This document shows positions 2,871-61,829 of a DNA stretch of 64,000 bases, one piece after another. The notes beneath the pieces are model-generated. The model ran no database searches. It was not told the DNA's origin and worked only from the letters and a program-made list of their open reading frames with translations. The translations under genes and the position numbers were made by a program. Each line of letters opens with the position of its first letter. The stretch's first letter is position 1. The DNA comes from Neolewinella lacunae (GTDB lineage: Bacteria > Bacteroidota > Bacteroidia > Chitinophagales > Saprospiraceae): positions 1 to 64,000 of the forward strand of contig NZ_JACSIT010000067.1 of NCBI RefSeq assembly GCF_014349155.1, written 5' to 3'.

Positions 2871-4265
2871 TTACATCGTAACCTTGCTTACCTGCCGCTG
2901 CATCTGCCGCGCATAAATCAGCGTCGTTCCTGCTTTTACGGCGGCGGCCACGTGCACGGCTTCCATCATTTGCTCTTCGTCGGCACCGGCCTGGAGCGAA
3001 TTGGTGGTATATGCGTCGATGCAGTACGAACACTGGATGGCGTGGCTCACGGCCAGTGCGATCAGGGCTTTTTCCCGCGCACTCAGCGCCGTATCGCCTT
3101 CGGTGACGCCGGCGTACCAGTCGAAAAATTTATTGCCCATTTCCTCTTGCCACTCCACGATCTTGCCGAAGGTGCGCAGGTCTTTAGGGTCCGAATATTG
3201 GTTATCCATGGTGGAATTTTTTAACGAATTAAGGGGTAGAGCAGCTTTGCCGTTCGTGCCGTTTTGGGCGCTGGACGCAGGTGCAGTGGAAGTTGTCCCC
3301 CCCACCCCCCCGAAGGGGGGAGCAGCAAGGGACGGATCCCCGAAGGGGGAAGCTGCGGGGGAAGTCGGGCCAGCCTCCGCTTTAATCTGCAGGGGATCGA
3401 GGGCAATGCCTTCGCGTTTTTCTTCCGCCGGGGGCATGATTTCGGTATTGTCCCAGATGCCCGTTGTCAGCGTTGCGGCGTAGGAGACGGGGAGGCGCCG
3501 ATCGTCGAGCATCCGGGCTTTGGCGGTGGTGTGGTCGTAGTCCAATGGATGGAAAGCGTAGTCGAAGCCCGCTGTATCGTCCAGGACGAGGTACCAGGTC
3601 CGGGGCGTACCGTCGTTGGCGGGCATGCCGATGACGCCGGCGTTGAGCCAGAGCCGGGATTCGCCACTGCTCGGACTTTGTCCCCCGGCAACGTCTTCCG
3701 CTTCCGCCAGGACGTGCGCAAAGGGGAGACCACAGTGCCCCGCCAGGACCACCTCGGCACCTGCGGCCGCGCAAAAATCGATCTTCTCCTCCGCCGGGGT
3801 GCTCCGCCAAACAAATTCCGACTGGTTGCGCGGCGAACCGTGCAGCACCACCACGCTGCGGCCCGCGTAGGTGAAACGCAACACATCCGGCAACGTAGCC
3901 ATGAATTCGAGGTTGCGCGCGCTGACGTGGCGACTGGCGAAGTTGTACCACAGCCTGGCAAACATATCGCAGCGCGAGCCGTCGCCAAAGCCGCATCCGC
4001 AGTCGTCGGTCTCATTCACCAGGTTGGTCTCCACGTTGCCCGCAATGGCGTGGCAGCCCCAGGTTTCGAGCAGGTCGAGGCATTCTTCCGGCTCCGCACA
4101 GTAGCCCGGGGTATCGCCCGTGCAAATGACGTTGCCGGCCGGAATGCCCAGCCGCGCCGCTTCCGCCTGCACCGCCGTCAGGGCCTGCAAGTTGGAGTAC
4201 GCGCCGCCAAAAACCAGCACGGGTCCGCGCAAGGTGCCCAGTTCTTTAGTCTTCATGCCTTCCAT
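2871..4265 (-). CDS. Phosphoesterase-like protein fused to AhpD-like domain
   Basis: 464 residues with two domains. Residues 1-280 resemble YfcE-type metallophosphoesterases: CTGDTPGYC near 48-56, AGNVE near 75, LHGSPRN near 141 and AGHCGLPF near 175. The first metal motif (normally SDxHGN) reads FGGAYSN here, so the usual Asp and His are absent. Residues 353-464 form an AhpD/carboxymuconolactone decarboxylase-like domain with CSYC (C412, C415), matching the arsenosugar-associated peroxidase-like family. The joining segment, about 300-352, is encoded by a dispersed repeat. An in-frame ATG at 3209 could start the second domain alone. The ATG at 4265 overlaps the stop of the preceding gene (TGATG), suggesting coupled translation; 4256 is an alternative. 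Confidence 0.75.
   Translation of the reverse strand: MEGMKTKELGTLRGPVLVFGGAYSNLQALTAVQAEAARLGIPAGNVICTGDTPGYCAEPEECLDLLETWGCHAIAGNVETNLVNETDDCGCGFGDGSRCDMFARLWYNFASRHVSARNLEFMATLPDVLRFTYAGRSVVVLHGSPRNQSEFVWRSTPAEEKIDFCAAAGAEVVLAGHCGLPFAHVLAEAEDVAGGQSPSSGESRLWLNAGVIGMPANDGTPRTWYLVLDDTAGFDYAFHPLDYDHTTAKARMLDDRRLPVSYAATLTTGIWDNTEIMPPAEEKREGIALDPLQIKAEAGPTSPAASPFGDPSLAAPPFGGVGGTTSTAPASSAQNGTNGKAALPLNSLKNSTMDNQYSDPKDLRTFGKIVEWQEEMGNKFFDWYAGVTEGDTALSAREKALIALAVSHAIQCSYCIDAYTTNSLQAGADEEQMMEAVHVAAAVKAGTTLIYARQMQRQVSKVTM
3266..3332 (-). repeat. 67-bp composite repeat, copy A, translated as a linker
   Basis: Read on the minus strand it starts TCCCTTGCTGCTCC, passes through a CCCTTCGGGGGG hairpin and a G-run, and ends with GCACCTGCGTCCAGCGCCC, a one-base-insertion form of the 18-bp dispersed motif. 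It is 58/67 identical to 14941-15007. It lies in frame in the phosphoesterase/AhpD fusion and encodes SLAAPPFGGVGGTTSTAPAS. A second, shorter CCCCGAAGGGGG hairpin follows at 3337-3350. Confidence 0.85.
3767..3784 (+). repeat. 18-bp dispersed motif, 16/18, inside phosphoesterase gene
   Basis: GCACCTGCGGCCGCGC followed by AA instead of CC. It lies within the phosphoesterase-like coding region and is translated on the opposite strand as CAAAGA. Confidence 0.5.
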
Positions 4266-4609
4266 CAGCCGATGCTTGTTCCGTTGGCGACCGGGAAATC
4301 CGGGCGCAGTAAAGTGACGACCTTGCCTTCCACCCCGCCCAGCAGGAGGCACTCGCTGCGGTGCTTCGCAATTTGTTTCGGGGGGAAGTTGACGACGGCA
4401 ACGACCTGCCGGCCCACCAACTCTTCGGGCGTGTAGCGGTCGGTAATCTGCGCCGAAGTTTTGCGCTCCCCGAGCTCTGCCCCGAAGTCGATCCACAACA
4501 GGTAAGCCGGATTGCGGGCCTCAGGGAAGGGCTCCGCGGCCAGTACCGTCCCCACGCGCATGTCGACGCGGAGGAATTCTGACCATGCTAAAGGTTCGTT
4601 TGCTTTCAT
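4265..4609 (-). CDS. CsaA-like tRNA-binding domain protein
   Basis: A 114-residue single-domain protein of the CsaA/tRNA-binding OB-fold family. It shows the typical opening DMRVGTVLAAEPFPEARNPAYLL and later TSAQITDRYTPEELVGRQVV, NFPPKQI and an ending near GTSIG. Relatives bind tRNA or act as export-related chaperones; its partner here is unknown. The start at 4609 overlaps the symporter stop by four bases (ATGA) and its stop overlaps the next start, so symporter, CsaA-like and phosphoesterase genes form one tightly packed minus-strand unit. Confidence 0.9.
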   Translation of the reverse strand: MKANEPLAWSEFLRVDMRVGTVLAAEPFPEARNPAYLLWIDFGAELGERKTSAQITDRYTPEELVGRQVVAVVNFPPKQIAKHRSECLLLGGVEGKVVTLLRPDFPVANGTSIG

Positions 4610-5991: not shown

Positions 5992-6024
5992 ACTATTACA
6001 TTATTATTCGATGAAACCAAGACC

Positions 6025-6143: not shown

Positions 6144-6171
6144 AGCGCCTATAGGGACTGATTGGAGAGAG

Positions 6172-7770: not shown

Positions 7771-7821
7771 GGGCGCGGCCGCAGGTGCTCCCCCCCGCCC
7801 CCCCGAAGGGGGGAGAAGGGA
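7771..7821 (-). repeat. Composite repeat, short form, between susC and susD
   Basis: Read on the minus strand: TCCCTTCTCCCCCCTTCGGG, then a G-run, then a perfect GCACCTGCGGCCGCGCCC (7771-7788). It begins 17 bp after the SusC stop and fills most of the SusC-SusD gap; the CCCCCCTTCGGGGGG part could act as a hairpin between the two genes. Confidence 0.85.
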
Positions 7822-7837
7822 CAAGGAGAATGGACGA

Positions 7838-10800: not shown

Positions 10801-11080
10801 CTGCACCTGCGGCCCCGACCAAATAAAGTTCCTGGGTCTCGTAACCCGTGTAGCTGAAAACGATGGTCTCGCCAGCTGAGGAGACCGCAAAAGTGAATTT
10901 GCCTTCCGCATCGGTTACCGTTCCAGCGCTGCGACCCCGCGCAAAAACCGAAGCACCAACGAGCGGCTCGCCGCTGTCGGCGTCAGTAACCTGGCCCGAG
11001 ATGGGAAATTGATTTTGGGCCGTCAAAGTAACGGCAAAGAGCAGGCCAAGCAAAGTGGCCCACGTACGTGAGTGTAACAT
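7838..11080 (-). CDS. SusC/RagA-family TonB-dependent outer-membrane transporter
   Basis: 1080 residues. Signal peptide of about 21 residues ending LTAQ, then a carboxypeptidase-like domain (ISGQVTDADSGEPLVGASV), the plug with LSEVVVTALGLKRDYRELGY, the SusC motif GTRAANGVVVITTK near residue 240, and a beta-barrel ending in aromatic-terminated strand GINLGVEF. It forms the outer-membrane channel energised by TonB and pairs with the SusD protein downstream. The segment VGAAGAADV just before the plug is encoded by a near copy (16/18) of the dispersed motif at 10803. A leader of about 170 bases separates it from the glycosyltransferase gene upstream. Confidence 0.96.
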   Translation of the reverse strand: MLHSRTWATLLGLLFAVTLTAQNQFPISGQVTDADSGEPLVGASVFARGRSAGTVTDAEGKFTFAVSSAGETIVFSYTGYETQELYLVGAAGAADVVVAMEVGTALSEVVVTALGLKRDYRELGYAVQQIGGEALTDVQAVNFLDNLAGQVAGLRVTTGATGVGSTSQIVIRGQTSFANNNPLFIVDGTPINNNTIINVTNEAAAGFQEIDFGNGAMEVNPADVESVSVLKGASAAALYGTRAANGVVVITTKSGGRKPGLGVSFNSSFTVDNPFQLPRFQNEFGQGQGGAFAFVDGLGAGTSDNITYSYGQRLDVGNSAPQFDSPVTLPDGRVVRGGDVAVHGGRPITPTPLVSQPDNVKDFFRTGTTAINNLAISGGGEFGDFRLSATDLRSASYIPGVNLDRKTLFGKFSFRPTDKLTVNANLSYVNSQSDNRPGAGYGSENIGYSLFAWYPRQANTESLRNYWQPGLEGTQQYSFNYTFFDNPFFTLLENRNPFNRDRLFGNLSASYEFSPTLRATVRSGMDYSNEQRRFLRNFSSNRFVQGGYAENDVFYREINTDVLLDYRPQLSGNFSLNLLAGANRLDQEARNTQRQALTLAQPGIFRLSNAASPVEIFDQVARKRINSVYALAKIGFKNFLYLDVTGRNDWSSALATPTNADNTSFFYPSVSLSFLADRAFDLPQAISFLQLRANWAQVGNDTDPYRTSSTFVARTPFGGQPTFSEQAVLAAANLLPEQTTSTEVGVDVRLADDRIGLDLTYFTQQTENQILSLPVPLSSGYREQIINGGSVSANGLEAILSLRPVWTDKFKWQSRFNFSTTRARVDALPEGTERFTLAFSRVYNSVDQTVFFIVEPGGEIGDIWGTGYLKNEAGEFVLTAAGNYIADNTLRKLGNANPDFMLGFQNNFRFGNFDLGLLLDWRQGGEVVSRTLALAAVGGQLEETANRPETGIIAQGVQNTGSSENPVYVPNTVAISAESYYRSFYDRNHEENNIYDASFLKIREVSLTYRLGREQLSDTFLSSLGSLSISVIGRNLYAFTKIPHFDPEQFAIQGQNLVGGVEDISYPTARSFGINLGVEF

Positions 11081-13928: not shown

Positions 13929-16050
13929 TTTCCCGCTCCCCACGGCCTGGGTGGAAGCCCTTGGCTGGACGATTCTGCACAGCCTCTGGCAGGGCCTCTT
14001 ACTCGCGGCTGTCCTCTGGCTGGCTTCGCGGGCCTGCCGGCGGGCGCAGGTCCGCTACGGACTGGCCTACGGAACTTTGCTGGCGCAGTTAGCCGTCTCT
14101 TTGCTCACCTTCTCCTGGGTCTACGTCCCCGCCGTGGCCGGGCCGGGCAGCCCTACCCTGCCCCCGGGCGAGACACTTTTTAACTTCAGCAACGCTGCGC
14201 CGGGCAGCGCCTGGGATCCCACCGTATTGCTGTTCTGGACCGTTGTTTTTTGGGCTTTTGGCCTGGTCATCGGCACGGTGCGGCTGGGGCTTTCCTTCGG
14301 GCGCGTCCGCAGGATGCAAAGGAAGGTGGAAGGAGCAGTGCCCGCCGACTTCCAGGCGAAGGTCCTCCGCCTTGCGCAACGCCTGGGCTGCCAGCGCAAA
14401 TTCCGCATCGGCCTGAGCCAGTACATTGACGGTCCGGCCCTGGTGGGTCACCTCCGGCCCATGTTGCTCTTTCCCATCGCCCTGGTCAATCAACTCACGC
14501 CCGAACAGGCCGAAACGATCATCCTCCACGAACTGGCCCACCTGCGCCGCAACGACCACTGGTGGAACCTGCTGCAGTGCGTCGTGGAAGTCCTGTTCTA
14601 TTACCACCCCGTGGTCTGGTGGATCGGTGCCCGCATCCGCGAAGAGCGGGAGTACTGCTGCGACGACCTCGTCCTGCGCCACGGGCCTGGTCAGTTGGCC
14701 TACGCCCAGGCCCTCCTCTACTTCGAGACCCAGCGCCAACACCCCCAGACGGCCGTCGGGCTGACGGGCAAACCCGGCGGACTGCTGGGCCGGGTGCAGC
14801 GCTTCATCCATCAACAAAACCTCCCTTATCAAATGAAAAGCAGACTCTTCCTCCTTCCTCTTTTAACGCTCCTTGCCCTGGCCACTACTGCCGCAGTAGC
14901 ACCAACGGATTCCTCCAGCGAACCGGAGACGGCCCCGACCTCCCTTGCTGCTCCACCCTTCGGGGGGCTGGGGGGGGCAACGACCCTCGCACCTGCGTTC
15001 AGCGCCCCAATAACGACCGATACCCTGCCCCGTGGCCGCCACCAGGTGAGCACCTTTCGCAATGGCAAATCGACGGAAGTGACCGTTGAAAATGGCGCCA
15101 TCAAAGCCCTGCGGATTGACGGACAGGACATCGCGCCGGTGGAGTTTGACCAGTACCAGGGCCTCGTCGAAGAGCTCCTGCAAGCCAGCAAAAAACCCGC
15201 CGCGCAGGGTTACAGCCGCTCCTTCAACTTCTACGACCCCGCTTCTTCCGAGGCATTCGAACGGCAAATGGAAGAGATGGGCCGCGTCTTTGAACGCACC
15301 TCCGAAGAACTGGAAGGCTCCTTCGAGGGGCTCAGCGAATCCTGGGAATACTCCTTCGAGGACAGCGAAGATTACTGGGAAGATTTCGGCCAACGCATGG
15401 AAGATTTCGGCGAAAGATTCGGCGAGTCCTTCGCAAAAATCTTCTCTTTCGGAGGCCTCGACAGCACCTTCCAACTGCGCATTGAGGGCAGCGGCCTGGA
15501 AAACTTGCAGTGGAACGTCGATAGCATGGTAAACAACGGTCAGATGGAAGGCCTGCGTTTCCAGATGCGTCCGGAAGGGGCGTACCCACGCGAGTACAAC
15601 CTAGAGGACCTGCGGCGTGACCGCGAAAATCTCCAGGGTGACGAAGAAGAGAAAATCCGCGAAATGGAGACCATGATCGAACAACTCGAACGCCGCAAGG
15701 CCGAGATGAAGCGTGATATGGCGGTACGGGACCGCGAGCTAGCCGAACGCGACCGGGCAATGGCGGAGCGCGACCGCGAGCTGGCGGCCAGAAACCGCGC
15801 CACGGAGGAAATGCGCCGCGCTGCCAGGGACGGCGCTTCGCCCAACATCCTCGACATCATGGGCCAACTCCAAAAAGAAGGTCTCCTGCCCGACGAAGAC
15901 GTGCGAAAAGTGGCCGTCGACCAAGACCGCCTCAGCGTCAACGGAAAGAAAGCCAGTAGTGCTGCCCACGCCCGTTTCCTGGAAATTTACCAGCAACGCG
16001 CCGGCCAGCCCTTCGGGAAAAACTCCTCCGTCCGCATCACGACCAACTAA
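13921..16050 (+). CDS. M56-family metallopeptidase (BlaR1-like sensor)
   Basis: About 709 residues. N-terminal membrane helices (TILHSLWQGLLLAAVLWLAS and following) surround the cytoplasmic zinc protease with HELAH (203-207) and REEREYCCDDLVL. A further membrane helix near 305-320 leads to an extracellular part. That part has no penicillin-binding sensor domain; it is acidic (repeated SFE/EDFGE segments) and later a charged coiled coil with a seven-residue repeat of the type RDRELAE. In BlaR1-like systems signal binding triggers cleavage of the BlaI partner. Residues near 340-365 are encoded by a dispersed repeat. ATG 13909 is an alternative start. Confidence 0.88.
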   Translation: MIDFPLPTAWVEALGWTILHSLWQGLLLAAVLWLASRACRRAQVRYGLAYGTLLAQLAVSLLTFSWVYVPAVAGPGSPTLPPGETLFNFSNAAPGSAWDPTVLLFWTVVFWAFGLVIGTVRLGLSFGRVRRMQRKVEGAVPADFQAKVLRLAQRLGCQRKFRIGLSQYIDGPALVGHLRPMLLFPIALVNQLTPEQAETIILHELAHLRRNDHWWNLLQCVVEVLFYYHPVVWWIGARIREEREYCCDDLVLRHGPGQLAYAQALLYFETQRQHPQTAVGLTGKPGGLLGRVQRFIHQQNLPYQMKSRLFLLPLLTLLALATTAAVAPTDSSSEPETAPTSLAAPPFGGLGGATTLAPAFSAPITTDTLPRGRHQVSTFRNGKSTEVTVENGAIKALRIDGQDIAPVEFDQYQGLVEELLQASKKPAAQGYSRSFNFYDPASSEAFERQMEEMGRVFERTSEELEGSFEGLSESWEYSFEDSEDYWEDFGQRMEDFGERFGESFAKIFSFGGLDSTFQLRIEGSGLENLQWNVDSMVNNGQMEGLRFQMRPEGAYPREYNLEDLRRDRENLQGDEEEKIREMETMIEQLERRKAEMKRDMAVRDRELAERDRAMAERDRELAARNRATEEMRRAARDGASPNILDIMGQLQKEGLLPDEDVRKVAVDQDRLSVNGKKASSAAHARFLEIYQQRAGQPFGKNSSVRITTN
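14941..15007 (+). repeat. 67-bp composite repeat, copy B, translated in the M56 protein
   Basis: Same order as copy A at 3266-3332: TCCCTTGCTGCTCC, CCCTTCGGGGGG hairpin, G-run, and a 19-base motif form GCACCTGCGTTCAGCGCCC (14989-15007). It encodes SLAAPPFGGLGGATTLAPAF in the linker between the last membrane helix and the extracellular region. Confidence 0.85.
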
Positions 16051-20651: not shown

Positions 20652-21431
20652 ATGCGCAGTCCTTTCTCCTTTTTGCTGCTCCTGTTGCTGGCCCTGAGTG
20701 CTTGCCGGGCACCACTCGATGCGGTTACCGTCCAACCCCAGACCTATAATATAACGACTGACCTGGACCCGATGAAGTCGGGCGCCGGAGCGCAGGTGCA
20801 GGGGGAAGGGACAGAAGAGCAAAGTATGGCGGAGCTGATTGCTCCCTACAAAGCCCAACTGGAAGAAAAGATGAACCGCCAGCTCGCCACCCTGGCCAAG
20901 CCCCTCCGCAAGGGCAACCCCGAAAGCACCCTCGGCAACTGGATGGCCGACCTGATGATGGACGCCGCTAGGGATGCTTCGCCCGGCCGTGCGGTCGCCT
21001 TCGCCACGGCCAACGACGGCGGCCTGCGGGTACAGGAAATTGGTGCCGGCCCACTCCTCGTCTCCGAAATCTACGAACTGATGCCTTTTGATAACGAGCT
21101 GGTACTGGTAGACCTGACTGGAGCCGAAACCATGGCCTTCATCAACCACATCGCCAACTCCGGCGGCTGGCCCGTCAGCAAGGAACTTAAGGTCGTCCGC
21201 GAAAACGGCCTGCTGAAAGTGAGCATCTCCGGCCAGGCCATCGACCCCGCCGGGCGTTACCTGGTGGCCATGCCCGATTACGTTGCCAACGGCGGCAGCG
21301 ATTCCAGTATGGTGAAAGGCAAACCCCAGACCTCCACTAATTTACTCATCCGCGACCTCCTCATCACTTACGCCGCCAGGGCTACCGCACCCATTGAGGT
21401 AGAGGCCACTGGCGACCGGATGAAGTTGTAG
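20652..21431 (+). CDS. 5'-nucleotidase C-terminal domain lipoprotein
   Basis: 259 residues. Signal peptide ending in the lipobox LALSAC (cysteine near 18). The mature part is the substrate-specificity domain of UshA-type 5'-nucleotidases: NPESTLGNWMADLMMDAAR, FATANDGGLR and SEIYELMPFDNELVLVDL. It lacks the metallophosphatase half, which is encoded separately by the next gene. The two probably act together outside the inner membrane. Confidence 0.9.
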   Translation: MRSPFSFLLLLLLALSACRAPLDAVTVQPQTYNITTDLDPMKSGAGAQVQGEGTEEQSMAELIAPYKAQLEEKMNRQLATLAKPLRKGNPESTLGNWMADLMMDAARDASPGRAVAFATANDGGLRVQEIGAGPLLVSEIYELMPFDNELVLVDLTGAETMAFINHIANSGGWPVSKELKVVRENGLLKVSISGQAIDPAGRYLVAMPDYVANGGSDSSMVKGKPQTSTNLLIRDLLITYAARATAPIEVEATGDRMKL

Positions 21432-21445: not shown

Positions 21446-21503
21446 AGCTTCTCCCCCTCCGGGGGTTGGGGGGCATCCTTCCCCCGCACCTGCGGCCGCG
21501 CCC
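21446..21503 (+). repeat. Composite repeat between the two nucleotidase genes
   Basis: AGCTTCTCCCCCTCCGGGGG, a short G-run, then a perfect GCACCTGCGGCCGCGCCC at 21486-21503. It starts 15 bp after the stop at 21431. Confidence 0.85.
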
Positions 21504-28453: not shown

Positions 28454-28471
28454 GGGCGCGGACGCAGGTGC
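28454..28471 (-). repeat. 18-bp dispersed motif, perfect
   Basis: Minus-strand GCACCTGCGTCCGCGCCC, 28 bp after the stop of the TPR membrane protein. Confidence 0.9.
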
Positions 28472-30727: not shown

Positions 30728-30745
30728 TCGCCTGCGGCCGCGCCC
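30728..30745 (+). repeat. 18-bp dispersed motif, 16/18
   Basis: TCGCCTGCGGCCGCGCCC, 10 bp beyond the stop of the SDR gene. Confidence 0.6.
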
Positions 30746-32561: not shown

Positions 32562-34094
32562 TTAAATTGCGTTGGCGACCATCAGTAATCCATTCAGGGG
32601 AATGGGCAGCCAGCTGGGGCGGCTGTTGAGTTCGTAGGCGACCTCGTAGATGGCTTTTTCGAGAATGAACAGCTCAAGCAACAGCTGGCGATCCTCGGCG
32701 GCGGCGGGCAGGAAGGGGGCGCTGCCGCAGGTGCCATAGTAAGCTTCCAGAAAGGCAGTGGACGTCGCCTGGAACCAGGCTTCGGCCCGGGGGACGAGGC
32801 TTTCGGCGCGGGCCTCAGCGGCGTAGGCGGCGTTGAGGAGCAGCTCACCGCGGGCAGCGTAGTGAAATGACCGCACCATGCCCGCCACGTCCTTGAGTGC
32901 GGGGCGTTTGCGGCGGCGTTCGGGGATGGTCAGCAGGGGTTCGCCCTCGAAGTCGATGATACAAAAGTCGTCTTCGGTAACCAAAACCTGCCCGAGGTGG
33001 TAATCGCCGTGGATGCGGATCAGGTCGAGCGCCATGTCTGCATTATCCAGGGCAGCAAGTTTTTGGGCCAGGTCGGATTCCATCTCCAGCACCCGTTGAG
33101 CGAGGGAGGCCTGGGCGGGGGGCAGGCCGGGGAGTTTGGCGCGAAGTTCCTCGATCTGGCGGGCCAGGAGTTTGGTGGCGGCGGCGGTAATTTCGTGGCG
33201 GTATTCAACCGACATGGCTTCCGGGGTGATCATTGCACCTGCGTCCGCGCCCAGCGCCGCAGGCAACAGTCCGGCCAGACCGAGGTGCATCTCGGCGGTG
33301 CGCTGGCCCAGGAGGCTGGCCCGTTCCAGCGTTTCGGCGTCTACCGGTCCGGTGCCCGCGTAGTAGCGCCCGGCGCGCTCCAGGAAGAAGTCCCAGGCTT
33401 CTGCGCGGTTATCGATTTTGCCCGTCAGCAGGCCGAGGTTGAGGTAATTAGGGTCGGTGACTTTTCCTACGCCCAGGCTGCCGGCGTAGGTCGGGCAGTG
33501 TTGAAAACCCGCCCGTTCGGAGAGGTAGCGCACCAGCTCCAGATCGGGATTGAGGCCGGGGTCGAGCTTGCGGAAAAGCTTGAAGAAAAAGCGGTCGTGG
33601 TAGACGATGGCCGTGTTGCTGGTATTGATGGCGGGCACGACGCTATCGGCCTGGGCCGGGGCGGTGCGCATCACTTTTCCCGCTTCGCAGGCAAGTCCGT
33701 CCGCCTGCGTCTCGCCGGCCCGCAGCAGGGCGTAGAGCGCGGCGCGGAACTGCGGCAGTGGAACGGCATCGACGATGAAGGGGCCACCGGGAACCCGCAG
33801 CAAGACCGAATTTTCGTTTTCCTTGAGGTAGCGCCGTTGGTCTTCGGTGTGAAGCAATTGCGCCAGGGGCATCTGAAACAACTCCGTGCTCTCGTTGCTG
33901 AAGTGTACCTGGACGATGGCCAGGACCGCATCCTCCGTCACGCGGTAACTCTGGACGACCCGGCACTGCGCAATGACTTTCCCCTTGCTGGTGAACCACC
34001 GCTGGCGGGCCAGGAATTCGGGTAAAGCTTCGAGGAGGGCATAAGTGAAACGGGGTTGGGCGAAGCGGTCTTTAAGTGGTACGGAGGCCTGCAT
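32562..34094 (-). CDS. Maltokinase-like phosphotransferase
   Basis: 510 residues, the length of Pep2/Mak maltokinases. N-terminal cap domain (QRWFTSKGKVI near 35) and an aminoglycoside-phosphotransferase-like kinase domain with the catalytic loop RIHGDYHLGQVLVTEDDF and metal-binding CIIDFEGEP, both typical. It would make maltose-1-phosphate from maltose and ATP, the substrate of GlgE, which is encoded at 55141-57072. The segment GADAGAM is encoded by a perfect dispersed motif. ATG at 34094. Confidence 0.88.
   Translation of the reverse strand: MQASVPLKDRFAQPRFTYALLEALPEFLARQRWFTSKGKVIAQCRVVQSYRVTEDAVLAIVQVHFSNESTELFQMPLAQLLHTEDQRRYLKENENSVLLRVPGGPFIVDAVPLPQFRAALYALLRAGETQADGLACEAGKVMRTAPAQADSVVPAINTSNTAIVYHDRFFFKLFRKLDPGLNPDLELVRYLSERAGFQHCPTYAGSLGVGKVTDPNYLNLGLLTGKIDNRAEAWDFFLERAGRYYAGTGPVDAETLERASLLGQRTAEMHLGLAGLLPAALGADAGAMITPEAMSVEYRHEITAAATKLLARQIEELRAKLPGLPPAQASLAQRVLEMESDLAQKLAALDNADMALDLIRIHGDYHLGQVLVTEDDFCIIDFEGEPLLTIPERRRKRPALKDVAGMVRSFHYAARGELLLNAAYAAEARAESLVPRAEAWFQATSTAFLEAYYGTCGSAPFLPAAAEDRQLLLELFILEKAIYEVAYELNSRPSWLPIPLNGLLMVANAI
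33235..33252 (+). repeat. 18-bp dispersed motif, perfect, inside maltokinase gene
   Basis: GCACCTGCGTCCGCGCCC; read in the gene's direction it encodes GADAGA in a linker-like stretch. Confidence 0.85.
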
Positions 34095-37247: not shown

Positions 37248-37248
37248 T

Positions 37249-37266
37249 GGGCGCGGTCGCAGGTGC
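37249..37266 (-). repeat. 18-bp dispersed motif, perfect, directly after a stop codon
   Basis: Minus-strand GCACCTGCGACCGCGCCC, one base after the HU-SPOR stop; a purine tract follows. Confidence 0.9.
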
Positions 37267-37315
37267 AGGGAAAGGATTAAAGGGGGAAGGGATTAAAGGG
37301 GGAAAGGAATTGGGC
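37267..37315 (+). repeat. Purine tract downstream of the HU-SPOR gene
   Basis: Two GGATTAAAGGGGGAA-like units, same family as the tracts ending genes at 29908, 45711 and 48278. Confidence 0.7.
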
Positions 37316-37331: not shown

Positions 37332-38624
37332 TCACGATCCCGTCGTAAATTCAATCAGGTAGGGCTTCAGGCGCACGCCGCTCTCCAGGCGGAAGTTGTT
37401 GGAGATCAACAGTTGGTAGCGCCGCTTTGGCTCCAGGTCCACCTCAAAAGTCCAGTTTTTGTTGTCGGCGGACCATGTTCGGTTGGGGCTGATGCGTGGA
37501 CAATGTTCTTCGCCAAGCGGACCAAAGTCCAAGCCGGTGTTGTATCCATTGAGGGGCTCGGAGAAGGTGAGGGTGATTTGCACCCGGCCGGGGCTGATGC
37601 CCTTCGCGCCGTTTCGGAAAGGGTCCATGGAGACGACCGTCGGCCGCTGCTTTTCGTAGGCCCGGTTGAGCTTGCGCAGCGGGGCAGGTAGCAGCCGCGT
37701 GCCGTCCACGAGGCGCTCAACGGCCGCTTCGTCGTGGAAGTCGAGTTCGATGAGCTCGCGGATGGCCCGCTGGGGGTCTTTGGCGGCCTGGTAGTGGCGC
37801 TCGGCAATCTCGTAGCCAATGTAGTAACCCAGGTCCCGCGTTTTCAGGGCGTTCCGGTTTTCGCCCCACATCCAGTCGTAGTTGTTGCTCATCAAAAAGA
37901 GGTCTTTGACGAATTGCCGGACGACTTCTTCCTGCCTGGCCTTGCCAATGGCGATGGCTGGTGAATTCGAGGGCATACCGGTGGCGGTGCAGGAAACGAA
38001 TTCCGCGATGCCCTCATAAAGGCACATGGAAAGAAGGTTTTCCACCAACTCGTTTTGCTGGGTGTGCACATATTCGTGGGTGCAGAGCAGGGCGATGTTT
38101 TTCAGGGGTTCGTATTCCCGGAAGAAGGGTTGCCGCCAGGCGGGAAGTTCCGTGATGACGGTAGCATCGTCGGCCAACGCCAATTCACTGCCAATCATGA
38201 CCATGTCCTTAGTCGCGGTCCCGTTGGTCCGGAAAACACCAACCGCAAAGTAAATGGGCACTGGCCGCAGTGCGGGATAAAGCTGCCGCAGGCGGTCCAG
38301 AGCGGCTTCAATGGCGGGGTAGCTGGCCTGCACCGCCGTGGTGTTGCTCCGCACCGACCGCCAGAACTCCGGATAGTCATTGATCGCGTGCAGGTATTCC
38401 GTGGGGGTGTAGTTGCGTGCCTCCTGAAGGGCCACCAGCCCCGGCGTGGCTTTCGCCAGGTAGTACTGCTGGAGCAGTGCCAGTTGCTGAACGGTGTCTG
38501 GCGTGGCCGTGATTTTGTCGTAGGCCTCCCAGAAATGCACTACGTCAGTAGCCACACAAGGCTGGGCGTGCAGGAAAGTGCCCAACAATACAGTGCAAAG
38601 TAAACAGCAGCGGCAAAAGGTCAT
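37332..38624 (-). CDS. Secreted zinc metallopeptidase, DUF2268-like
   Basis: 430 residues with a signal peptide (CCLLCTVLLGTFLHAQ). The catalytic motif THEYVHTQQNE (HExxH, near 182) and the glutamate in YEGIAEFVS about 25 residues later fit gluzincin peptidases such as DUF2268 proteins. The C-terminal 100 residues look like an Ig-like/Big_5 domain (ISPGRVQITLTFSEPLNGYN). Substrate unknown. Single gene on the minus strand. Confidence 0.8.
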   Translation of the reverse strand: MTFCRCCLLCTVLLGTFLHAQPCVATDVVHFWEAYDKITATPDTVQQLALLQQYYLAKATPGLVALQEARNYTPTEYLHAINDYPEFWRSVRSNTTAVQASYPAIEAALDRLRQLYPALRPVPIYFAVGVFRTNGTATKDMVMIGSELALADDATVITELPAWRQPFFREYEPLKNIALLCTHEYVHTQQNELVENLLSMCLYEGIAEFVSCTATGMPSNSPAIAIGKARQEEVVRQFVKDLFLMSNNYDWMWGENRNALKTRDLGYYIGYEIAERHYQAAKDPQRAIRELIELDFHDEAAVERLVDGTRLLPAPLRKLNRAYEKQRPTVVSMDPFRNGAKGISPGRVQITLTFSEPLNGYNTGLDFGPLGEEHCPRISPNRTWSADNKNWTFEVDLEPKRRYQLLISNNFRLESGVRLKPYLIEFTTGS

Positions 38625-38793: not shown

Positions 38794-38811
38794 GGGCGCG
38801 GCCGCAGGTGC
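38794..38811 (-). repeat. 18-bp dispersed motif, perfect
   Basis: Minus-strand GCACCTGCGGCCGCGCCC, 38 bp beyond the stop of the ABC ATPase gene. Confidence 0.9.
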
Positions 38812-40462: not shown

Positions 40463-41272
40463 CTACTCCACCGCCATTACGCAGCGAAAGCCCAGGTGGT
40501 TCAGTCCGCTATCCGCCGGAGTATACTGCCGCTGCTTCAGGTTAAAGCCCGTGCAGTAGGAAGTACTGCACAAAAAGGACCCACCTTTGATGACCGATTC
40601 CTGGGTCTCCGTGCGGAGGGTGGAGGTCCACTCCCATACGTTTCCGGACATGTCGTAGAGACCATTGCCCGCCGCAGCAAAGGAACGCACGGGGGCGATG
40701 CCGGGGAAACCGTCCAGTACCTGGTCTTCGTAGGGAAACGGCCCTTGCCACCAGTTGCCGGGGTACTTCCCGGCCGGGACCATCTCCTTTCCCCAGGGAT
40801 ATTCCGCAAACTGACCCGACTGGGAGGCGGCCCACACCCATTCCGCTTCGGTGGGCAGGCGCTTACCCGCCCACGTGGCGTAGGCCCTGGCGTCGCGCAG
40901 GCTGACTTGCGTGACGGGTTCGGCGGCGCGGGCGGCCGAATCCGCCGGGCCGCGGGGGTGCCGCCAATCCGCCCCATCCACGGGCAGCCAGGCCAGGGAA
41001 TCGAGGTGAAAAACGCCCGACCAGCCGAATTCTTCGGCTTCGGTGATGTATTCAGTAGCTTCGACGAAGGTGGCAAAGTCTGCCGTGGTTACCTCCGTAG
41101 CGTCCATAAAAAAGGCCGGGACTTCGCTATTGCCGGGAATGTAGACCATGCCGGGGGGGGCGTCCGGCGCTGGCTCGGCCTCCTTTGCCGTACACGAAAA
41201 CACTGCACCTGCGGCCGCGCCCATAAAAAGCGTGGCCCAAATGGCTGACCGAAAAGGGAAAGAAATAAGCAT
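40463..41272 (-). CDS. Formylglycine-generating enzyme family lipoprotein
   Basis: 269 residues. Signal peptide with lipobox AVFSC (cysteine near 27). FGE-sulfatase fold: MVYIPGNSEVPAFFMDATEV, LPTEAEWVWAA, GLYDMSGNVWEWT, and GGSFLCSTSYC, whose two cysteines match the copper-binding active-site pair of true FGE. Many Bacteroidota relatives (for example GldK-type) lack them, so this one may be catalytic. The signal peptide segment MGAAAGAV is encoded by a perfect dispersed motif. No sulfatase is nearby. Confidence 0.85.
   Translation of the reverse strand: MLISFPFRSAIWATLFMGAAAGAVFSCTAKEAEPAPDAPPGMVYIPGNSEVPAFFMDATEVTTADFATFVEATEYITEAEEFGWSGVFHLDSLAWLPVDGADWRHPRGPADSAARAAEPVTQVSLRDARAYATWAGKRLPTEAEWVWAASQSGQFAEYPWGKEMVPAGKYPGNWWQGPFPYEDQVLDGFPGIAPVRSFAAAGNGLYDMSGNVWEWTSTLRTETQESVIKGGSFLCSTSYCTGFNLKQRQYTPADSGLNHLGFRCVMAVE
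41205..41222 (+). repeat. 18-bp dispersed motif, perfect, inside a signal peptide
   Basis: GCACCTGCGGCCGCGCCC; in the gene's direction it encodes the GAAAGA of the FGE-like lipoprotein signal sequence. Confidence 0.85.
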
Positions 41273-43565: not shown

Positions 43566-44312
43566 ATGCTCTTCGAAGTTTGTCTGCAATCCGTTGACGA
43601 TGCCATTGCCGCCGAGCGCGGGGGAGCCCAGCGGGTAGAGCTTTGTGCCGCGCTGGTGGAGGGCGGCATCACCCCCAGCCTGGGGACCATCCGGGCCTGC
43701 AGGGCGGCCATCGACATCGACCTGATGGTGATGATCCGGCCGCGGGGAGGGGATTTTGACTACACGGCCCGGGAGCTCGAAGCGATGGCGCTGGACATCG
43801 AGCAGTGCCGGCAAATCGGCGTAACGGGCGTCGTTTTCGGGGTCTTGAACGTGGACGGCACCATTGCGCGGCCGCAGGTGCAAAGTTTGGTCGGGCAAGC
43901 CAGCGGGCTCTCCGTCACCTTCCACCGCGCCTTCGATGTTTGTTCCGACCCCGCCAGCGCCCTCGAAGCATTGATCGGGTTGGGCGTAGACCGCGTACTT
44001 ACCTCCGGGCAGGCGGCTACCGTCCCGGAAGGCAAAGGGCAAATCCGCCAGCTCGTTGAGCAGGCCGCAGGGCGTATCGGCATTTTGCCTGGCTGTGGCA
44101 TCACGCCCGAGAACGTGGCGGAACTGGTGGACTACCTGGGCGTCGGGGAGTTTCACGCTACGGCCTTTGGCACCCGGCACTCGGCCATGCGCCACCAGAA
44201 TCCGGCCGTATACATGGGCATCCCCGGCCTGCCCGAGTACGAGCGGCAGGTAACCTCGGAAAGCGAGGTACGGCGTTTTTTGGCGGCCGTATCCCGGGCC
44301 CGCCGGGGGTAA
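43566..44312 (+). CDS. cutC: CutC family protein
   Basis: 248 residues, TIM barrel. Family markers: EVCLQSVDDAIAAERGGAQR, ELCAALVEGGITPS, MVMIRPRGGDFDYT and FHRAFDVCSDP. Linked to copper handling in some organisms; its actual activity is unsettled. A 16/18 dispersed motif (43864-43881) lies inside and encodes ARPQV. It starts 13 bp after the glycosylasparaginase stop, likely same transcript. Confidence 0.95.
   Translation: MLFEVCLQSVDDAIAAERGGAQRVELCAALVEGGITPSLGTIRACRAAIDIDLMVMIRPRGGDFDYTARELEAMALDIEQCRQIGVTGVVFGVLNVDGTIARPQVQSLVGQASGLSVTFHRAFDVCSDPASALEALIGLGVDRVLTSGQAATVPEGKGQIRQLVEQAAGRIGILPGCGITPENVAELVDYLGVGEFHATAFGTRHSAMRHQNPAVYMGIPGLPEYERQVTSESEVRRFLAAVSRARRG
43864..43881 (-). repeat. 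18-bp dispersed motif, 16/18, inside cutC
   Basis: Minus-strand GCACCTGCGGCCGCGC followed by AA. Confidence 0.5.
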
Positions 44313-44339: not shown

Positions 44340-44357
44340 GCACCTGCGGCCGCGCCC
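44340..44357 (+). repeat. 18-bp dispersed motif, perfect
   Basis: GCACCTGCGGCCGCGCCC, 28 bp after the cutC stop and 41 bp before rimO. Confidence 0.9.
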
Positions 44358-44397: not shown

Positions 44398-45711
44398 ATG
44401 AAAACCAAGACACTACGTCCGGATAAAGTCAACGTCATCACGCTGGGTTGTTCCAAGAACCTCGTCGATTCCGAGAACATCATTACCCAGCTGAAGGCCA
44501 ACGATTACGCCGTCAGCCACGACGCCAACGAGGCGGCCAATATCGTCATCGTCAATACCTGTGGCTTCATCGACCTGGCCAAGGAGGAAAGCATCAACAC
44601 CATCCTGGACTACGCCGATCGCAAAACGCGGGGCGAGATTGATAAGCTCTACGTTACGGGCTGCCTCAGCCACCGCTACAAGGAAAACCTGGAGGAGGAA
44701 ATCCCCGAAGTGGACGCCTACTTCGGCACGATGGAACTGCCCGGCCTGCTCAACCGCCTGGAGGCCGACTACAAGCACGACCTGATCGGCGAGCGCTTCA
44801 TCACCACCCCCGAGCACTACGCCTACCTGAAAATCAGCGAAGGCTGCAACCGTACCTGTTCGTTTTGCGCCATCCCGTTGATGCGCGGCAAGCACGTCTC
44901 GCGGCCCATCGAAGAGTTGGTCCGCCAGGCCGAGCACTTCGCCCGCAACGGCGTCAGGGAACTCATGCTCATTGCCCAGGAACTGACTTACTACGGCCTG
45001 GACCTCTACAAAACCCGCGAGTTGCCCCGCCTCCTCGAAGCCCTGGCCGCCGTGGAAGGCATCCGCTGGATCCGGCTGCACTACGCCTACCCCAGCAAGT
45101 TCCCCCGCGAGATCTTTACGGTGATGGCCGCCCAACCCAAGGTCTGTAACTACCTCGATATTCCCCTGCAGCACGCCAGCGACGCCGTTTTGCTGCGTAT
45201 GCGCCGGCAGATTACCCGCGCTGAGACCGAAGACCTGATTCGCCACGCCCGCGCCGTGGTGCCCGGCATCGCCATCCGCACGACCTTTCTGGTAGGCTAC
45301 CCCGGGGAGACGGAAGAGGAATTTGAAGAGCTTTGCCAGTTCGTCCGCGCCATGCGCTTCGAGCGACTGGGCGTCTTCATGTACAGCCACGAGGAAGACA
45401 CCCCGGCCTACGGTGCCGAAGACGACGTCCCCGCCGAAGTAAAGGCCGACCGCGCCAACCGCCTGATGGAAATCCAGAAAGACATCAGCCTCGAACTCAA
45501 CGAAGCCCGGATCGGGGCCGAAATGGACGTGCTCATCGAGCGCAAAGAGAACGAGTTCTACGTAGGGCGCACCGAATACGACAGCCCGGACGTGGACAAC
45601 GAAGTGCTCATCCCCGCCAGCCAGGCATACCTCCGCACGGGCGATTTCGTCCGGGTCCGCATCACCGGCGCTACCGATTACGACCTGGAAGCGGAGGTAG
45701 TAAGGGAGTAA
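44398..45711 (+). CDS. rimO: Ribosomal protein S12 methylthiotransferase RimO
   Basis: 437 residues. Radical SAM methylthiotransferase that modifies Asp of ribosomal protein S12. The N-terminal cluster domain opens ITLGCSKNLVDSE; radical SAM cysteines are C150, C154 and C157 in CNRTCSFC; a TRAM domain ends the protein. The stop codon lies within the purine tract 45701-45763 and the last residues VVRE are encoded by it. Confidence 0.97.
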   Translation: MKTKTLRPDKVNVITLGCSKNLVDSENIITQLKANDYAVSHDANEAANIVIVNTCGFIDLAKEESINTILDYADRKTRGEIDKLYVTGCLSHRYKENLEEEIPEVDAYFGTMELPGLLNRLEADYKHDLIGERFITTPEHYAYLKISEGCNRTCSFCAIPLMRGKHVSRPIEELVRQAEHFARNGVRELMLIAQELTYYGLDLYKTRELPRLLEALAAVEGIRWIRLHYAYPSKFPREIFTVMAAQPKVCNYLDIPLQHASDAVLLRMRRQITRAETEDLIRHARAVVPGIAIRTTFLVGYPGETEEEFEELCQFVRAMRFERLGVFMYSHEEDTPAYGAEDDVPAEVKADRANRLMEIQKDISLELNEARIGAEMDVLIERKENEFYVGRTEYDSPDVDNEVLIPASQAYLRTGDFVRVRITGATDYDLEAEVVRE

Positions 45712-48316: not shown

Positions 48317-48334
48317 GGGCGCGGGCGCAGGTGC
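48317..48334 (-). repeat. 18-bp dispersed motif, perfect
   Basis: Minus-strand GCACCTGCGCCCGCGCCC, 38 bp after the preceding stop. Confidence 0.9.
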
Positions 48335-50088: not shown

Positions 50089-50106
50089 GCACCTGCGACC
50101 GCGCCC
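50089..50106 (+). repeat. 18-bp dispersed motif, perfect
   Basis: GCACCTGCGACCGCGCCC, 130 bp after the aldehyde dehydrogenase stop. Confidence 0.9.
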
Positions 50107-55044: not shown

Positions 55045-55062
55045 TGGCGCGGCCGCAGGTGC
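55045..55062 (-). repeat. 18-bp dispersed motif, 17/18
   Basis: Minus-strand GCACCTGCGGCCGCGCCA, 10 bp after the CCG-protein stop, in a convergent gap. Confidence 0.85.
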
Positions 55063-57072: not shown

Positions 57073-57500
57073 AATGGGGGTCTCGTACTTTGGAAGTGCA
57101 ATGTTAGGCAAAAAGCCTTAATGGTAAAAGCACCGCAGGCAAGGATGGTTCGGGCTGGAGGGAGAAAGCCTGGCCAGGCCCGAAGGCCGCGCCTAAGCCC
57201 TTCAGCGAGTATGCGGAAGATAGCAAAAAATTTATAATAAGTTAAAGTAAGCGGCGTGCGGGGGCAGACTTGCACCGCTCACCGTCCGCTACCACCGCTC
57301 CTGCGTTCGCGCCCACCGTTCCCTCAAGAAGCGTAAATCTTAAGATTTCATTACACAATTTTTACGCGCACTATGCTGCTTTAATATTGGTTGCCTGGTT
57401 TTGCCCCGGTGGAGCGCAGGCAATATTTTTCAACCGATTTACCGATGTGCACCTCCTTTACTATCCGCACGTTCGCTCACCATTATTCAATCCCAAAACC
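57073..57500. other. 428-bp divergent gap between glgE and the caspase gene
   Basis: No gene. A possible TATCTTCC promoter box for glgE lies near 57211-57218 on the minus strand. A weaker copy of the dispersed motif (GCTCCTGCGTTCGCGCCC, 57299-57316) is present. AT-rich from 57225 to 57245 and 57335 to 57365. Confidence 0.5.
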
Positions 57501-59165: not shown

Positions 59166-59196
59166 AAAAATGTCAGGTTGGAACTATGCAACGTAG

Positions 59197-59433: not shown

Positions 59434-59467
59434 CTGATTTTCAGATGCGTTAGATTGTAAAGGGCTT

Positions 59468-59533
59468 AGTTCGGTAGTTTTGTAGTTCGGTAGTGGACAA
59501 TACCCCACTACCGAACTACAAAACTACCGAACT
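59468..59533. terminator. Perfect 29-bp-arm hairpin between convergent genes
   Basis: Arms 59468-59496 and 59505-59533 are exactly complementary (AGTTCGGTAGTTTTGTAG... ), loop of 8 bases. Built from AGTTCGGTAGT units like the hairpin at 24195-24307. Probably a bidirectional terminator. Confidence 0.75.
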
Positions 59534-59597
59534 ACAAAACTGCCTGCTAAAGAAAGCTCAACCTCACGTGAAGGAAAAAGAGGGGAGCGAAAGGAAA

Positions 59598-61829
59598 TCA
59601 CACGACCAATAAGCCGTATTCCTGTACCGTCAGCATCTCTTCGCTGTACCAGAAGTCGGGAAAATCCGGTAGCATCCGCTCGTAATCGGCCCGGACTTCC
59701 GCCAGCGTGCGGGGCTCCTGGCTGCGGTCTCCCGCCCGGCGGAGGGTATTTACCAGCCAGTAACCGACTTCATCTTCGAGGTGGATGGTGGCCGTATCCC
59801 GGCGGTCGTAGAGCGTGATTTCCAAGGCTCCGGGCAGGTCTTTTACCGTTGGTTCGCCGCCGAGCCACACGACTTGGGCGGTGCTGCGGGCCAGGACGTC
59901 ATCAAAGTACTCCAGCGCCGTTTCGATGTAGTCGGGCTCCACCGTTGTTTCCGGGATGGGGAAGTCAAACCACTCCTGCAAAGGGTAGTCGAAACAAATG
60001 CCGTGCAGGTAATTGTACAGCGATTTTTTGAGCCCGAAACTGAATTGGTCGTGGTCAATGCCAGTGGAATCGGTAAACTGGATATCGTTGTTGGCGAAGG
60101 TGATGGGCTGGTAGTGAGGAAGGATGCCGTAGGCCTCCGGGTCTTTGCCGATGGGGCTGTGGGCCGTCAGGGCAAACTGGTGCCAGAAGCCGGATTGCAA
60201 CACGCCCGCCTGGAACAGCTGGCGGACCATCTCCAGACTGTCTACCGTTTCCTGCACGGTTTGCGTGGGATAGCCGTACATCAGATAGGCGTGGACCATG
60301 ATGCCGGCTTCGGTAAAGGCGTGCGTCACCCGCGCCACCTGCTCTACGGTTACCCCCTTTTTGATGAGGTCCAGCAGACGGTCGGAGGCCACCTCCAGTC
60401 CCCCGGACACGGCAATGCAGCCGCTGGCCTGTAGCAGGCGGCAGAGGTCGGGCGTAAAGCGTTTTTCGAAGCGGATATTGGTCCACCAGGTCAGGCGCAG
60501 TTTGCGGCGGATGATCTCCAGGGCCAGGTCGCGCATCAGGGCGGGCGGAGCGGCTTCGTCGACGAAGTGAAAGCCATTTTCACCCGTTTGGGCGATGAGT
60601 TCCTCCATGCGGTCCACCAGCATTTTCGCCTGCACGGGCTGGTAGTTGCCGATGTAATCCAGGCCAACGTCGCAGAAGGTGCATTTGCCCCAGTAGCAGC
60701 CGTGGGCCATCGTCAGTTTGTTCCAGCGCCCATCGCTCCAGAGGCTGTGCATGGGGTTGGCGATTTCGATGACCGAGAGGTAGCGGTCGAGGGGCAGCCC
60801 CGTGTAATCGGGCGTCCCGGTGTCGCTTTGGCGATAGTCGCGGCGGAGGGAAAAGTCGTTATAGACTACCGCGCCGTTTTCCAGGTGGAAGGTGCGTTTG
60901 AGGGGCACAAATGTTTTAGCGGGCGCGGCCGCAGGTGCCGGGGCCGTTGAAGGGCCGGCGACGTCCTCCCCCGCAGTCATTTGGATGAGCAATTCAATGG
61001 GCAATTCCCCGTCGTCGAGGGTAATAAAGTCGAAGTAATCGAAGACGCGCACCTCCGTCAGGCTGCGCAGTTCTGTATTGGCGAATCCGCCGCCCATGGC
61101 CGTCCGGATACCGGGGTAATGGGCCTTGATCCACTGGGCGCAGCGGAAGGCCGAGAAAAGATTGCCCGGGAAGGGGACGGAAAAACAGACGAGTCCGTAG
61201 TCCGCCGGCAAGTAGGTCGCCAGCACTTCCAGCGTAATTTCGTCGATGAAGGACAGTGGTGCCTGGAGGGCCGCGTGCAGTTCGTCAAAGGAGTTGGCGC
61301 TCCGGCCCAGTCGCTCCGCGTAGCGACTGAAGCCAAACTGGGCGTCGATGCATTCGACGATGAAGTCCGAAAGATCTTCCAGGTACAGCGTAGCCAGGTG
61401 CTTGGCCTTGTCCTGGTGGCCCATATTCCCGAAGGCCAGTTCGAGCTGGTCGAGCTGATCGAAGCGACTGGCCTGAGGGAGGAAGTTTTCGCTGGCGATG
61501 GCCCGGGCCAGGGTAGGGTTTTTGCCCTGCAGGAAGCGGATGACGGGTTCGATGGTGGCCAGGTACTCTTCGCGGAGGGCGTAGATGCGGCGGGCATTGC
61601 TCGTCGTTACCGTCCCATGCACCTGCGCCCGCGCAAAAATTTCCCCCAACCGCTGCCGCGTAAAAAGGGCCAGGATGACCTCAATGCCGAGGTCGAGTTG
61701 CTGGCAGGCCATCCCCTTGGTATTGAGAAAACCCTTGAGGTAGGCCGTGGCCGGGTAAGGGGTGTTCAGCTGGGTGAACGGAGGCGTGATGAGGAGCGTG
61801 GCCGGCACGGCGGGGAGGAGTTTAAGCAC
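59598..61829 (-). CDS. B12-binding/radical SAM protein of unknown substrate
   Basis: About 743 residues. N-terminal cobalamin-binding-like Rossmann region (TLLITPPFTQLNTPYPATAY, AMGGGFANTE, FITLDDGELPIELLI), a radical SAM core with CYWGKCTFCDV, and a C-terminal extension. No methyltransferase subfamily can be named. The linker PSTAPAPAAAPAKT is encoded by a perfect dispersed motif (60921-60938), and a 16/18 copy (61619-61636) lies earlier in the gene. The start is GTG 61829 or GTG 61808; a TACCTTTG box ends one base before the first. Confidence 0.82.
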   Translation of the reverse strand: MLKLLPAVPATLLITPPFTQLNTPYPATAYLKGFLNTKGMACQQLDLGIEVILALFTRQRLGEIFARAQVHGTVTTSNARRIYALREEYLATIEPVIRFLQGKNPTLARAIASENFLPQASRFDQLDQLELAFGNMGHQDKAKHLATLYLEDLSDFIVECIDAQFGFSRYAERLGRSANSFDELHAALQAPLSFIDEITLEVLATYLPADYGLVCFSVPFPGNLFSAFRCAQWIKAHYPGIRTAMGGGFANTELRSLTEVRVFDYFDFITLDDGELPIELLIQMTAGEDVAGPSTAPAPAAAPAKTFVPLKRTFHLENGAVVYNDFSLRRDYRQSDTGTPDYTGLPLDRYLSVIEIANPMHSLWSDGRWNKLTMAHGCYWGKCTFCDVGLDYIGNYQPVQAKMLVDRMEELIAQTGENGFHFVDEAAPPALMRDLALEIIRRKLRLTWWTNIRFEKRFTPDLCRLLQASGCIAVSGGLEVASDRLLDLIKKGVTVEQVARVTHAFTEAGIMVHAYLMYGYPTQTVQETVDSLEMVRQLFQAGVLQSGFWHQFALTAHSPIGKDPEAYGILPHYQPITFANNDIQFTDSTGIDHDQFSFGLKKSLYNYLHGICFDYPLQEWFDFPIPETTVEPDYIETALEYFDDVLARSTAQVVWLGGEPTVKDLPGALEITLYDRRDTATIHLEDEVGYWLVNTLRRAGDRSQEPRTLAEVRADYERMLPDFPDFWYSEEMLTVQEYGLLVV
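60921..60938 (-). repeat. 18-bp dispersed motif, perfect, inside radical SAM gene
   Basis: Minus-strand GCACCTGCGGCCGCGCCC, encoding APAAAP in a linker between the B12-like and radical SAM domains. Confidence 0.85.
61619..61636 (+). repeat. 18-bp dispersed motif, 16/18, inside radical SAM gene
   Basis: GCACCTGCGCCCGCGCAA; encodes ARAQV on the gene strand. Confidence 0.5.

Follow-up and report, generated by a model that had tools for sequence, protein, structure and literature searches.

What function could be served by an 18-bp sequence that recurs, nearly unchanged, along a stretch of bacterial DNA? The question is raised by 64,000 nucleotides of Neolewinella lacunae (contig NZ_JACSIT010000067.1, positions 1 to 64,000; the whole of this stretch is referred to here as the window), in which an original prediction, made from the letters alone, had pointed out the motif GCACCTGCGNCCGCGCCC, an 18-bp core with one variable position (position 10). 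The motif had been likened to DNA uptake sequences or HIP1-type palindromes, with a mobile mini-repeat or a protein-binding site as further options. Here we describe its copy number, restriction to one genus, division into dialects, preference for intergenic positions, the in-place substitution seen in one gene, and exclusion between copies on the same strand. As judged from the genomes, these features suggest that the motif probably serves as the tag recognized by a sequence-specific system of DNA uptake (natural transformation), similar to the DNA uptake sequences (DUS) of Neisseriaceae and the uptake signal sequences of Pasteurellaceae and evolved independently in this Bacteroidota genus (Neolewinella/Lewinella). 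The dialects, the in-place substitution and the strand-specific spacing are new beyond the original prediction.

Copy number and anatomy of the motif

The motif is genuine and does not reflect chance. All 11 exact copies that had been reported in the window were found where they had been placed, and at up to three mismatches the window contains 21 sites, compared with 1.05 expected and a maximum of 4 in 100 dinucleotide-preserving shuffles, in agreement with the claim that chance recurrence is implausible. Searching the complete N. lacunae genome (G000; 5,815,296 bases in 154 contigs) at up to one mismatch returned 1,181 copies, 578 forward and 603 reverse, or approximately one per 4.9 kb. The reversed pattern, searched as a control, gave 0 and 1. 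In a 460-kb sample of G000, comprising the window and a further 396 kb, sites with 0, 1, 2, 3 and 4 mismatches numbered 71, 26, 21, 22 and 73, so that a sharp class of exact copies stands above a chance tail.

Among 97 copies, position 10 was occupied by G in 67, T in 17, A in 8 and C in 5, and the remainder of the core was near-invariant. All four bases thus occur at this position, as had been noted, yet G dominates. In the 460-kb sample a weak pyrimidine arm lies 5' of the core and A-rich bases lie 3' of it; in the other genomes of the group the arm is approximately CTTCC-T and the core is followed by AAAA. Beyond this short arm the copies have no common flanks. A lone copy (37230-37275) folds no better than shuffled sequence (z 1.09). 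Folding is seen, by contrast, for two inverted copies separated by 34 bp (z -8.5). The motif shares with HIP1 of cyanobacteria a high density of short dispersed copies. HIP1 is a palindromic octamer, however, whereas GCACCTGCGNCCGCGCCC differs from its own reverse complement and its orientation matters; this asymmetry excludes the HIP1-type palindrome that had been suggested.

Genus restriction and dialects

The main motif was present in all 20 other genomes of the genus, with 1 to 1,135 copies each. It was found in 2 of 39 further relatives, one copy in each. The family's other genera were represented by 117 genomes, of which one had a single one-mismatch site and 116 had none. The matches listed by a public scan included Neolewinella, Lewinella and Saprospiraceae contigs, together with single hits in unrelated GC-rich genomes (actinobacteria and others). 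The motif is therefore restricted to the genus, with single stray matches outside it, and the one-mismatch count across the genome and its relatives, which the original prediction had proposed as a check, separated 1,181 copies from 1 control match and confined them largely to the genus. In the open-licence literature we found no paper describing a motif of this kind for Saprospiraceae, or for Lewinella or Neolewinella in particular.

Several genomes poor in the main motif carry other dialects. The dialect of G001, CCTGCGCTCCGNCG, occurs 506 times (254 and 252 by strand; control 1), and ACCTGCGCTCCGNCGCC has 580 copies in G001 and 298 in G006. The dialect of G010, GRCTNNCAAAGTAGCA, is unrelated in sequence to the main motif and is present in 1,028 copies (530 and 498 by strand; control 7), while CAAAGTAGCAAWGC occurs 883 times in G010 as against 0-13 times in each of the other 20 genomes. 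Weaker variants, near the main motif, are conspicuous in G013 (with a GCAGCGCC end) and G017 (with a CCCCGCC end); G004 has a weak dialect, and no clear one was seen in the 80 kb sampled from G008. The two main forms coexist in many genomes; G015, for instance, has 191 copies of the main motif and 159 of the G001/G006 form. The dialects follow phylogeny: in a RimO tree (a single gene, 20 genomes) G001 and G006 are sisters, G013 groups with G019, and G010 forms the longest branch. In other genera (G021, G023, G025 and G033; 124-180 kb each), the strongest words that were pursued, two from G025 and one each from G033 and G021, were mainly palindromes or repeats within large repetitive genes; as neither G023 nor the other words were part of that check, a further genus may have a tag of its own.

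Some further occurrences were noted. G000 itself contains 33 copies of the G001/G006 form (up to one mismatch; control 0), which are possibly older or foreign tags, and contig C14 of G013 has about ten dispersed copies of CAAAGTACCAAAGC, which is near the G010 tag with one constant difference. Some contigs of a viral catalogue also contain several exact copies (L316, L322, L347, L352, L369, L340; L319, L333, L348, L377, L382); among them are five or six contigs of one kind and a contig of 44.6 kb with at least 7 exact copies. Two related contigs of this catalogue, 72% identical in their DNA, each have an exact copy at about the matching aligned position. The tag-bearing catalogue contigs may be host DNA or tag-carrying viruses.

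Placement relative to genes

Location was scored for 99 copies in the 460-kb sample, with genes called by our own simple open-reading-frame caller. Only 27 copies were coding, compared with 79.2 expected, and 68 lay between genes: 16 in convergent gaps (2.7 expected), 16 in divergent gaps (3.9 expected, 4.1-fold) and 36 in tandem gaps (11.2 expected, 3.2-fold). The ends of the sampled stretches held 4, with 2.0 expected. Within tandem gaps 20 copies pointed with the genes and 16 against them, and there is thus no orientation relative to genes. The G010 motif also avoids genes (13 of 36 copies coding, 29.7 expected), with 8 copies in the same orientation and 8 in the opposite one.

According to the original prediction, nine of ten strong intergenic copies follow a stop codon at a distance of 1-130 bp. 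This is correct within the window, where the tenth copy, at 41205, lies between divergent genes, but it does not extend to a general rule of 3'-end placement, as the 460 kb show a preference for any intergenic gap, divergent ones included. Because divergent gaps are enriched and the copies have no gene orientation, a 3'-end-of-gene reading is too narrow. A stop-codon or terminator element was rejected on the same grounds, divergent gaps being enriched like tandem ones and the lone copy being unfolded.

Of the 27 coding copies, 7 begin within the first 20 codons of the gene. Six of these coincide with the ends of signal peptides, such as LLCTCVSAQ (L112:4543, L118:1320, L118:8163, L121:2558, L126:9278 and L129:13725), and the seventh is at a doubtfully called start codon. 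The A12 variant GCACCTGCGTCAGCGCCC is found in four of the signal-peptide copies (L112, L121, L126 and L129).

Copies on the same strand keep apart

Consecutive copies in the G000 sample switch strand 67 of 94 times, compared with 48.5 by shuffling (P=0.00015). Adjacent copies less than 4 kb apart were inverted in 44 of 49 cases, and those more than 4 kb apart had no strand preference (23 of 45). Close neighbors were also inverted in 36 of 45 cases in a 77-locus set, made up of those among 102 loci listed by the public scan whose titles name this group or Co_bin.246; these loci come from other genomes. Two other dialects share this opposite-strand bias: adjacent copies within 4 kb were inverted in 29 of 37 (listed loci) and 25 of 28 (sampled; the data overlap) for G010, and in 24 of 27 for G001. 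In G005 the figure was 8 of 10 (P=0.055), and exact copies on four further contigs alternated 17 of 26 times (P=0.18), in the same direction and not significant. These strand-pair tests assume independent pairs, and the metagenome loci in the 77-locus set may include close strains.

To separate attraction from exclusion, all pairs of copies in G000 were compared with random placement matched for coding or gap position. Same-strand pairs within 4 kb numbered 11, with approximately 48 expected, whereas opposite-strand pairs numbered 49, with approximately 48 expected; same-strand copies therefore keep apart, while opposite ones do not attract. The same-strand deficit was 1 versus 14.8 expected below 1 kb, 3 versus 11.5 at 1-2 kb and 7 versus 21.6 at 2-4 kb, and at 4-6 kb there was no depletion (28 versus 19.7). 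With positions fixed and strands shuffled, 29.0 same-strand pairs within 4 kb were expected, compared with the 11 seen.

The main rival explanation for this strand rule is that tags lying as direct repeats a few kb apart are deleted or selected against, irrespective of the tag's function. This would account for the spacing only, and is compatible with an uptake tag; we consider it possible, if doubtful. Exactly as it predicts, the exclusion tracks same versus opposite strand and not the side on which two copies face one another (64 versus 77), and the depletion is strongest at short distance, below 1 kb. Deletion between 18-bp repeats, however, should become much rarer as distance grows and hardly occur at 2-4 kb, a range in which a threefold depletion persists in G000 before disappearing at 4-6 kb.

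The spacing would also suit an intracellular protein-binding site whose action runs along one strand for several kb, for example in nucleoid organization, repair, recombination or chromosome segregation, and the density, gap preference and long near-invariant core would likewise fit a directional site of kb scale. We nevertheless find this reading unlikely. Sites of the Chi type or FtsK-orienting polar sequences (KOPS) are expected to lean to one strand per replichore, whereas here the strands are intermixed within five sampled stretches of 40-157 kb (one 40-kb stretch reads + - - - - - +) and are nearly balanced genome-wide (578/603). A polar motif of the Chi/KOPS kind was accordingly rejected. 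The complete sequence replacement in G010 would be unexpected for a housekeeping site, and the essential confinement of the motif to one genus, with stray single matches in 2 of 39 and 1 of 117 relatives, also speaks against it.

How individual copies arise

The gene at 32562-34094 is present in 19 of the 21 genomes and was aligned in 18 sequences, two partial pieces from G010 being left out. At site 32717 the codons of the motif are gapless across 18 of 18 aligned orthologues and differ by substitutions. This alignment, of one gene, indicates that the coding copy at 32717 arose by substitution in place. The copy at 33235, in a loop of variable length, is intact in both G000 and G002, differs by one base in G009 and is further eroded in G019 and G015; G018 has an exact copy of its own nearby, in a longer loop where insertion is possible. 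The orthologous gaps upstream of rimO, where G013 has a near copy, could not be aligned because the species are too distant. The protein encoded at 37332-38555, found in only 6 of 21 genomes, is a poor marker.

Transposase-driven spread of a mobile mini-repeat, such as a repetitive extragenic palindrome (REP) or a miniature inverted-repeat transposable element (MITE), appears very improbable, although G000 does contain a longer dispersed unit. A CCCCCC-TTC-GGGGGG hairpin lies up to 45 bp upstream of 29 of 119 copies (up to two mismatches), forming a unit of approximately 45 bp, as in the 7771 region, L116 and L125, and 23 of 26 such hairpins in G000 lie within 80 bp of a core. These hairpins and the intergenic position are the features shared with REP and MITE elements. 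The hairpin accompanies 0 of 135 copies at the loci of seven other genomes, however, whereas the bare 18-bp core is common to them. The core itself has no hairpin or common boundaries, and no shared flanks besides the pyrimidine arm; site 32717 was made by substitution and not by insertion, and close pairs that are only inverted are not a signature of transposition. For the core, then, the in-place substitution in one gene disfavors the mini-repeat that had been suggested, though about a quarter of the G000 copies sit in a hairpin unit.

Chance, base composition or codon usage can be dismissed: the motif is GC-rich, encodes an in-frame APAAAP and belongs to a class of short patterns that recur in GC-rich genomes (the single actinobacterial and other hits), but the shuffles (21 versus 1.05), the reversed-pattern control (1,181 versus 1), the mostly non-coding position and the zero count in 116 of 117 other-genus family genomes rule it out.

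A candidate tag for DNA uptake

Among the options first considered, a DUS-like tag is best supported, by approximately 1,200 dispersed copies on both strands, genus limits, dialects and mainly intergenic position; uptake itself is putative. In the available text of PMC3630211, the DUS of Neisseriaceae are asymmetric, lie in and between genes, form close inverted pairs and have dialects congruent with phylogeny. The motif resembles DUS, as far as the accessible sources describe them, in its roughly one to several thousand dispersed asymmetric copies in and between genes, its close inverted pairs and its species dialects. It differs in its 18-bp near-invariant core, compared with 10-12 bp, in its unrelated sequence and phylum, in that no type IV pilus (T4P) ATPase was recognized, and in that the core of one of the genus's dialects is unlike that of all the rest. 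The same-strand exclusion over approximately 4 kb was likewise not found described for DUS in the source text available. Unlike the uptake signal sequences (USS) of Pasteurellaceae, the motif is 27% coding, compared with 65% for H. influenzae, and neighboring copies are non-randomly oriented; sequence, phylum and machinery differ as well. Within the same phylum, Riemerella is naturally competent and ComEC-dependent, and R. columbina favors its own DNA (PMC8459023, PMC7965970, in the portions available). Riemerella transformation depends on ComEC, DprA, ComF and RecA, together with proteins whose function is not known (PMC8459023). Unlike the genus studied here, Riemerella has no convincing reported tag in the accessible part of PMC7965970, where a k-mer table gives A-rich words and leaves their function open.

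We propose that a putative surface or outer-membrane receptor would bind the asymmetric core of approximately 18 bp and its short 5' arm. DNA of the same kind that carries the tag would enter the cell and recombine, so that tagged alleles would be imported more often and tags would pile up where selection on sequence permits, mostly between genes; if the receptor changed, the tag would follow, generating dialects. The dialects, genus limits, permissive placement and in-place substitution suit a tag that accumulates through preferential uptake and recombination. In a further step, the orientation of the tag would select the DNA strand delivered. Within a single fragment (approximately 2-4 kb), adding another tag to the strand already tagged would then bring no gain, while an opposite-strand tag would, and strand-specific spacing would result. 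In this model a new tag is favored only if its fragment would not be imported anyway, so tags should repel one another within a fragment length, and the restriction of this repulsion to one strand suggests that each tag brings in one strand. For gonococcus, the available text of PMC12061091 cites strand differences for single-stranded tagged DNA. Uptake, receptor and strand choice are the parts of this model that we infer. Its fullest form, which we advance tentatively, would be a third independent origin of tagged uptake, located in Bacteroidota and not reliant on type IV pili, in which the receptor picks one DNA strand, the genome has adapted by spacing its tags per strand at the approximately 4-kb scale of imported fragments, and one lineage has acquired an unrelated replacement tag.

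Several observations weigh against the uptake model. ComEC was found in 21 of 21 genomes of the genus but also in 10 of 14 control genomes, E. coli included, and is therefore not specific as a marker. A search of the 21 genomes with PF00437, the ATPase family of T4P and type II secretion systems, gave no full-length match (pilins themselves were not searched): 11 genomes reach the cut-off, all through stretches of about 84 of 370 positions, and the best match in G000 (E 2.8e-5 over 84 of 370 positions) fails it. With no such ATPase recognized beyond short fragments, the minor pilins known as DUS and USS receptors are unlikely to be involved. Since the known examples would lead one to expect a pilus ATPase, the motif is, in the strict sense, a candidate member of the DUS/USS kind. 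A simple polar version of the model is not supported, the two inverted arrangements being of equal frequency (64 '+-' and 77 '-+', P=0.31), and strand-blind spacing is no more even than random (P=0.20). Uptake by H. influenzae is independent of tag orientation in the available text of PMC1939737, so the strand rule is not a known property of DUS. The longer hairpin unit around about a quarter of the G000 copies could not be produced by point substitution alone. Finally, tag-poor stretches are not clearly foreign DNA, and long tag-free gaps also hold housekeeping genes. Tag density was 0.75 per 10 kb in 4 low-GC tiles and 2.0-2.7 elsewhere (Spearman P=0.075). One tag-free, low-coding stretch of 20.8 kb and lower GC content (0.506) contains a frame of 2,018 residues (L123:13227-19283, minus strand) that matched nothing in Pfam.

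Copies in the window

The sites in the window are collected in Table 1. The original list of near copies was real, with corrections: those given at 3767 and 57299 start at 3757 and 57297, those at 3266, 14989 and 25747 are 19-mers with one extra internal base, and a one-mismatch copy at 32717 had been overlooked. The reported use of both orientations, about 12 plus and 9 minus, was reproduced as the same split among 21 sites. Two three-mismatch sites, at 35778 and 36780, may be due to chance.

Table 1. Copies of the motif and related sites in the window
Position	Strand	Match	Context
3266..3284	-	19-mer spacing variant	GCACCTGCGTCCAGCGCCC, one extra base inside motif
3757..3774	+	two mismatches	
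7771..7788	-	exact	hairpin-type, CCCCCCTTCGGGGGG immediately 5'
10803..10820	+	two mismatches	
14989..15007	+	19-mer spacing variant	GCACCTGCGTTCAGCGCCC, one extra base inside motif
20780..20799	-	resembles G001/G006 dialect	GCACCTGCGCTCCGGCGCCC
21486..21503	+	exact	54 bp past stop codon
25747..25765	+	19-mer spacing variant	GCACCTGCGCACCGCGCCC, one extra base inside motif
28454..28471	-	exact	convergent genes either side
30728..30745	+	two mismatches	
32717..32734	-	one mismatch	coding, gene 32562-34094; gapless in 18/18 orthologues
33235..33252	+	exact	coding, antisense in gene 32562-34094 (GADAGA); length-variable loop
37249..37266	-	exact	1 bp past stop, convergent genes
38794..38811	-	exact	tandem genes either side
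41205..41222	+	exact	divergent genes either side
43864..43881	-	two mismatches	
44340..44357	+	exact	upstream of rimO-like gene (44398-45711)
48317..48334	-	exact	tandem genes either side
50089..50106	+	exact	130 bp past stop
55045..55062	-	one mismatch	convergent genes either side
57297..57314	+	two mismatches	
60921..60938	-	exact	coding, APAAAP in gene 59598-61829
61619..61636	+	two mismatches	

Implications

In the source text available, tagged uptake has so far been documented in two families of Proteobacteria; if Bacteroidota acquired it separately, such tags would have evolved repeatedly. The several dialects, one of them unrelated to the rest, would then help in the search for a receptor that is not a pilin. 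As a footprint that extends across the genome, the strand-specific spacing could also be sought in genomes with DUS or USS. It renders testable from sequence the old question whether uptake-driven recombination causes tags to accumulate, and over what length of fragment.

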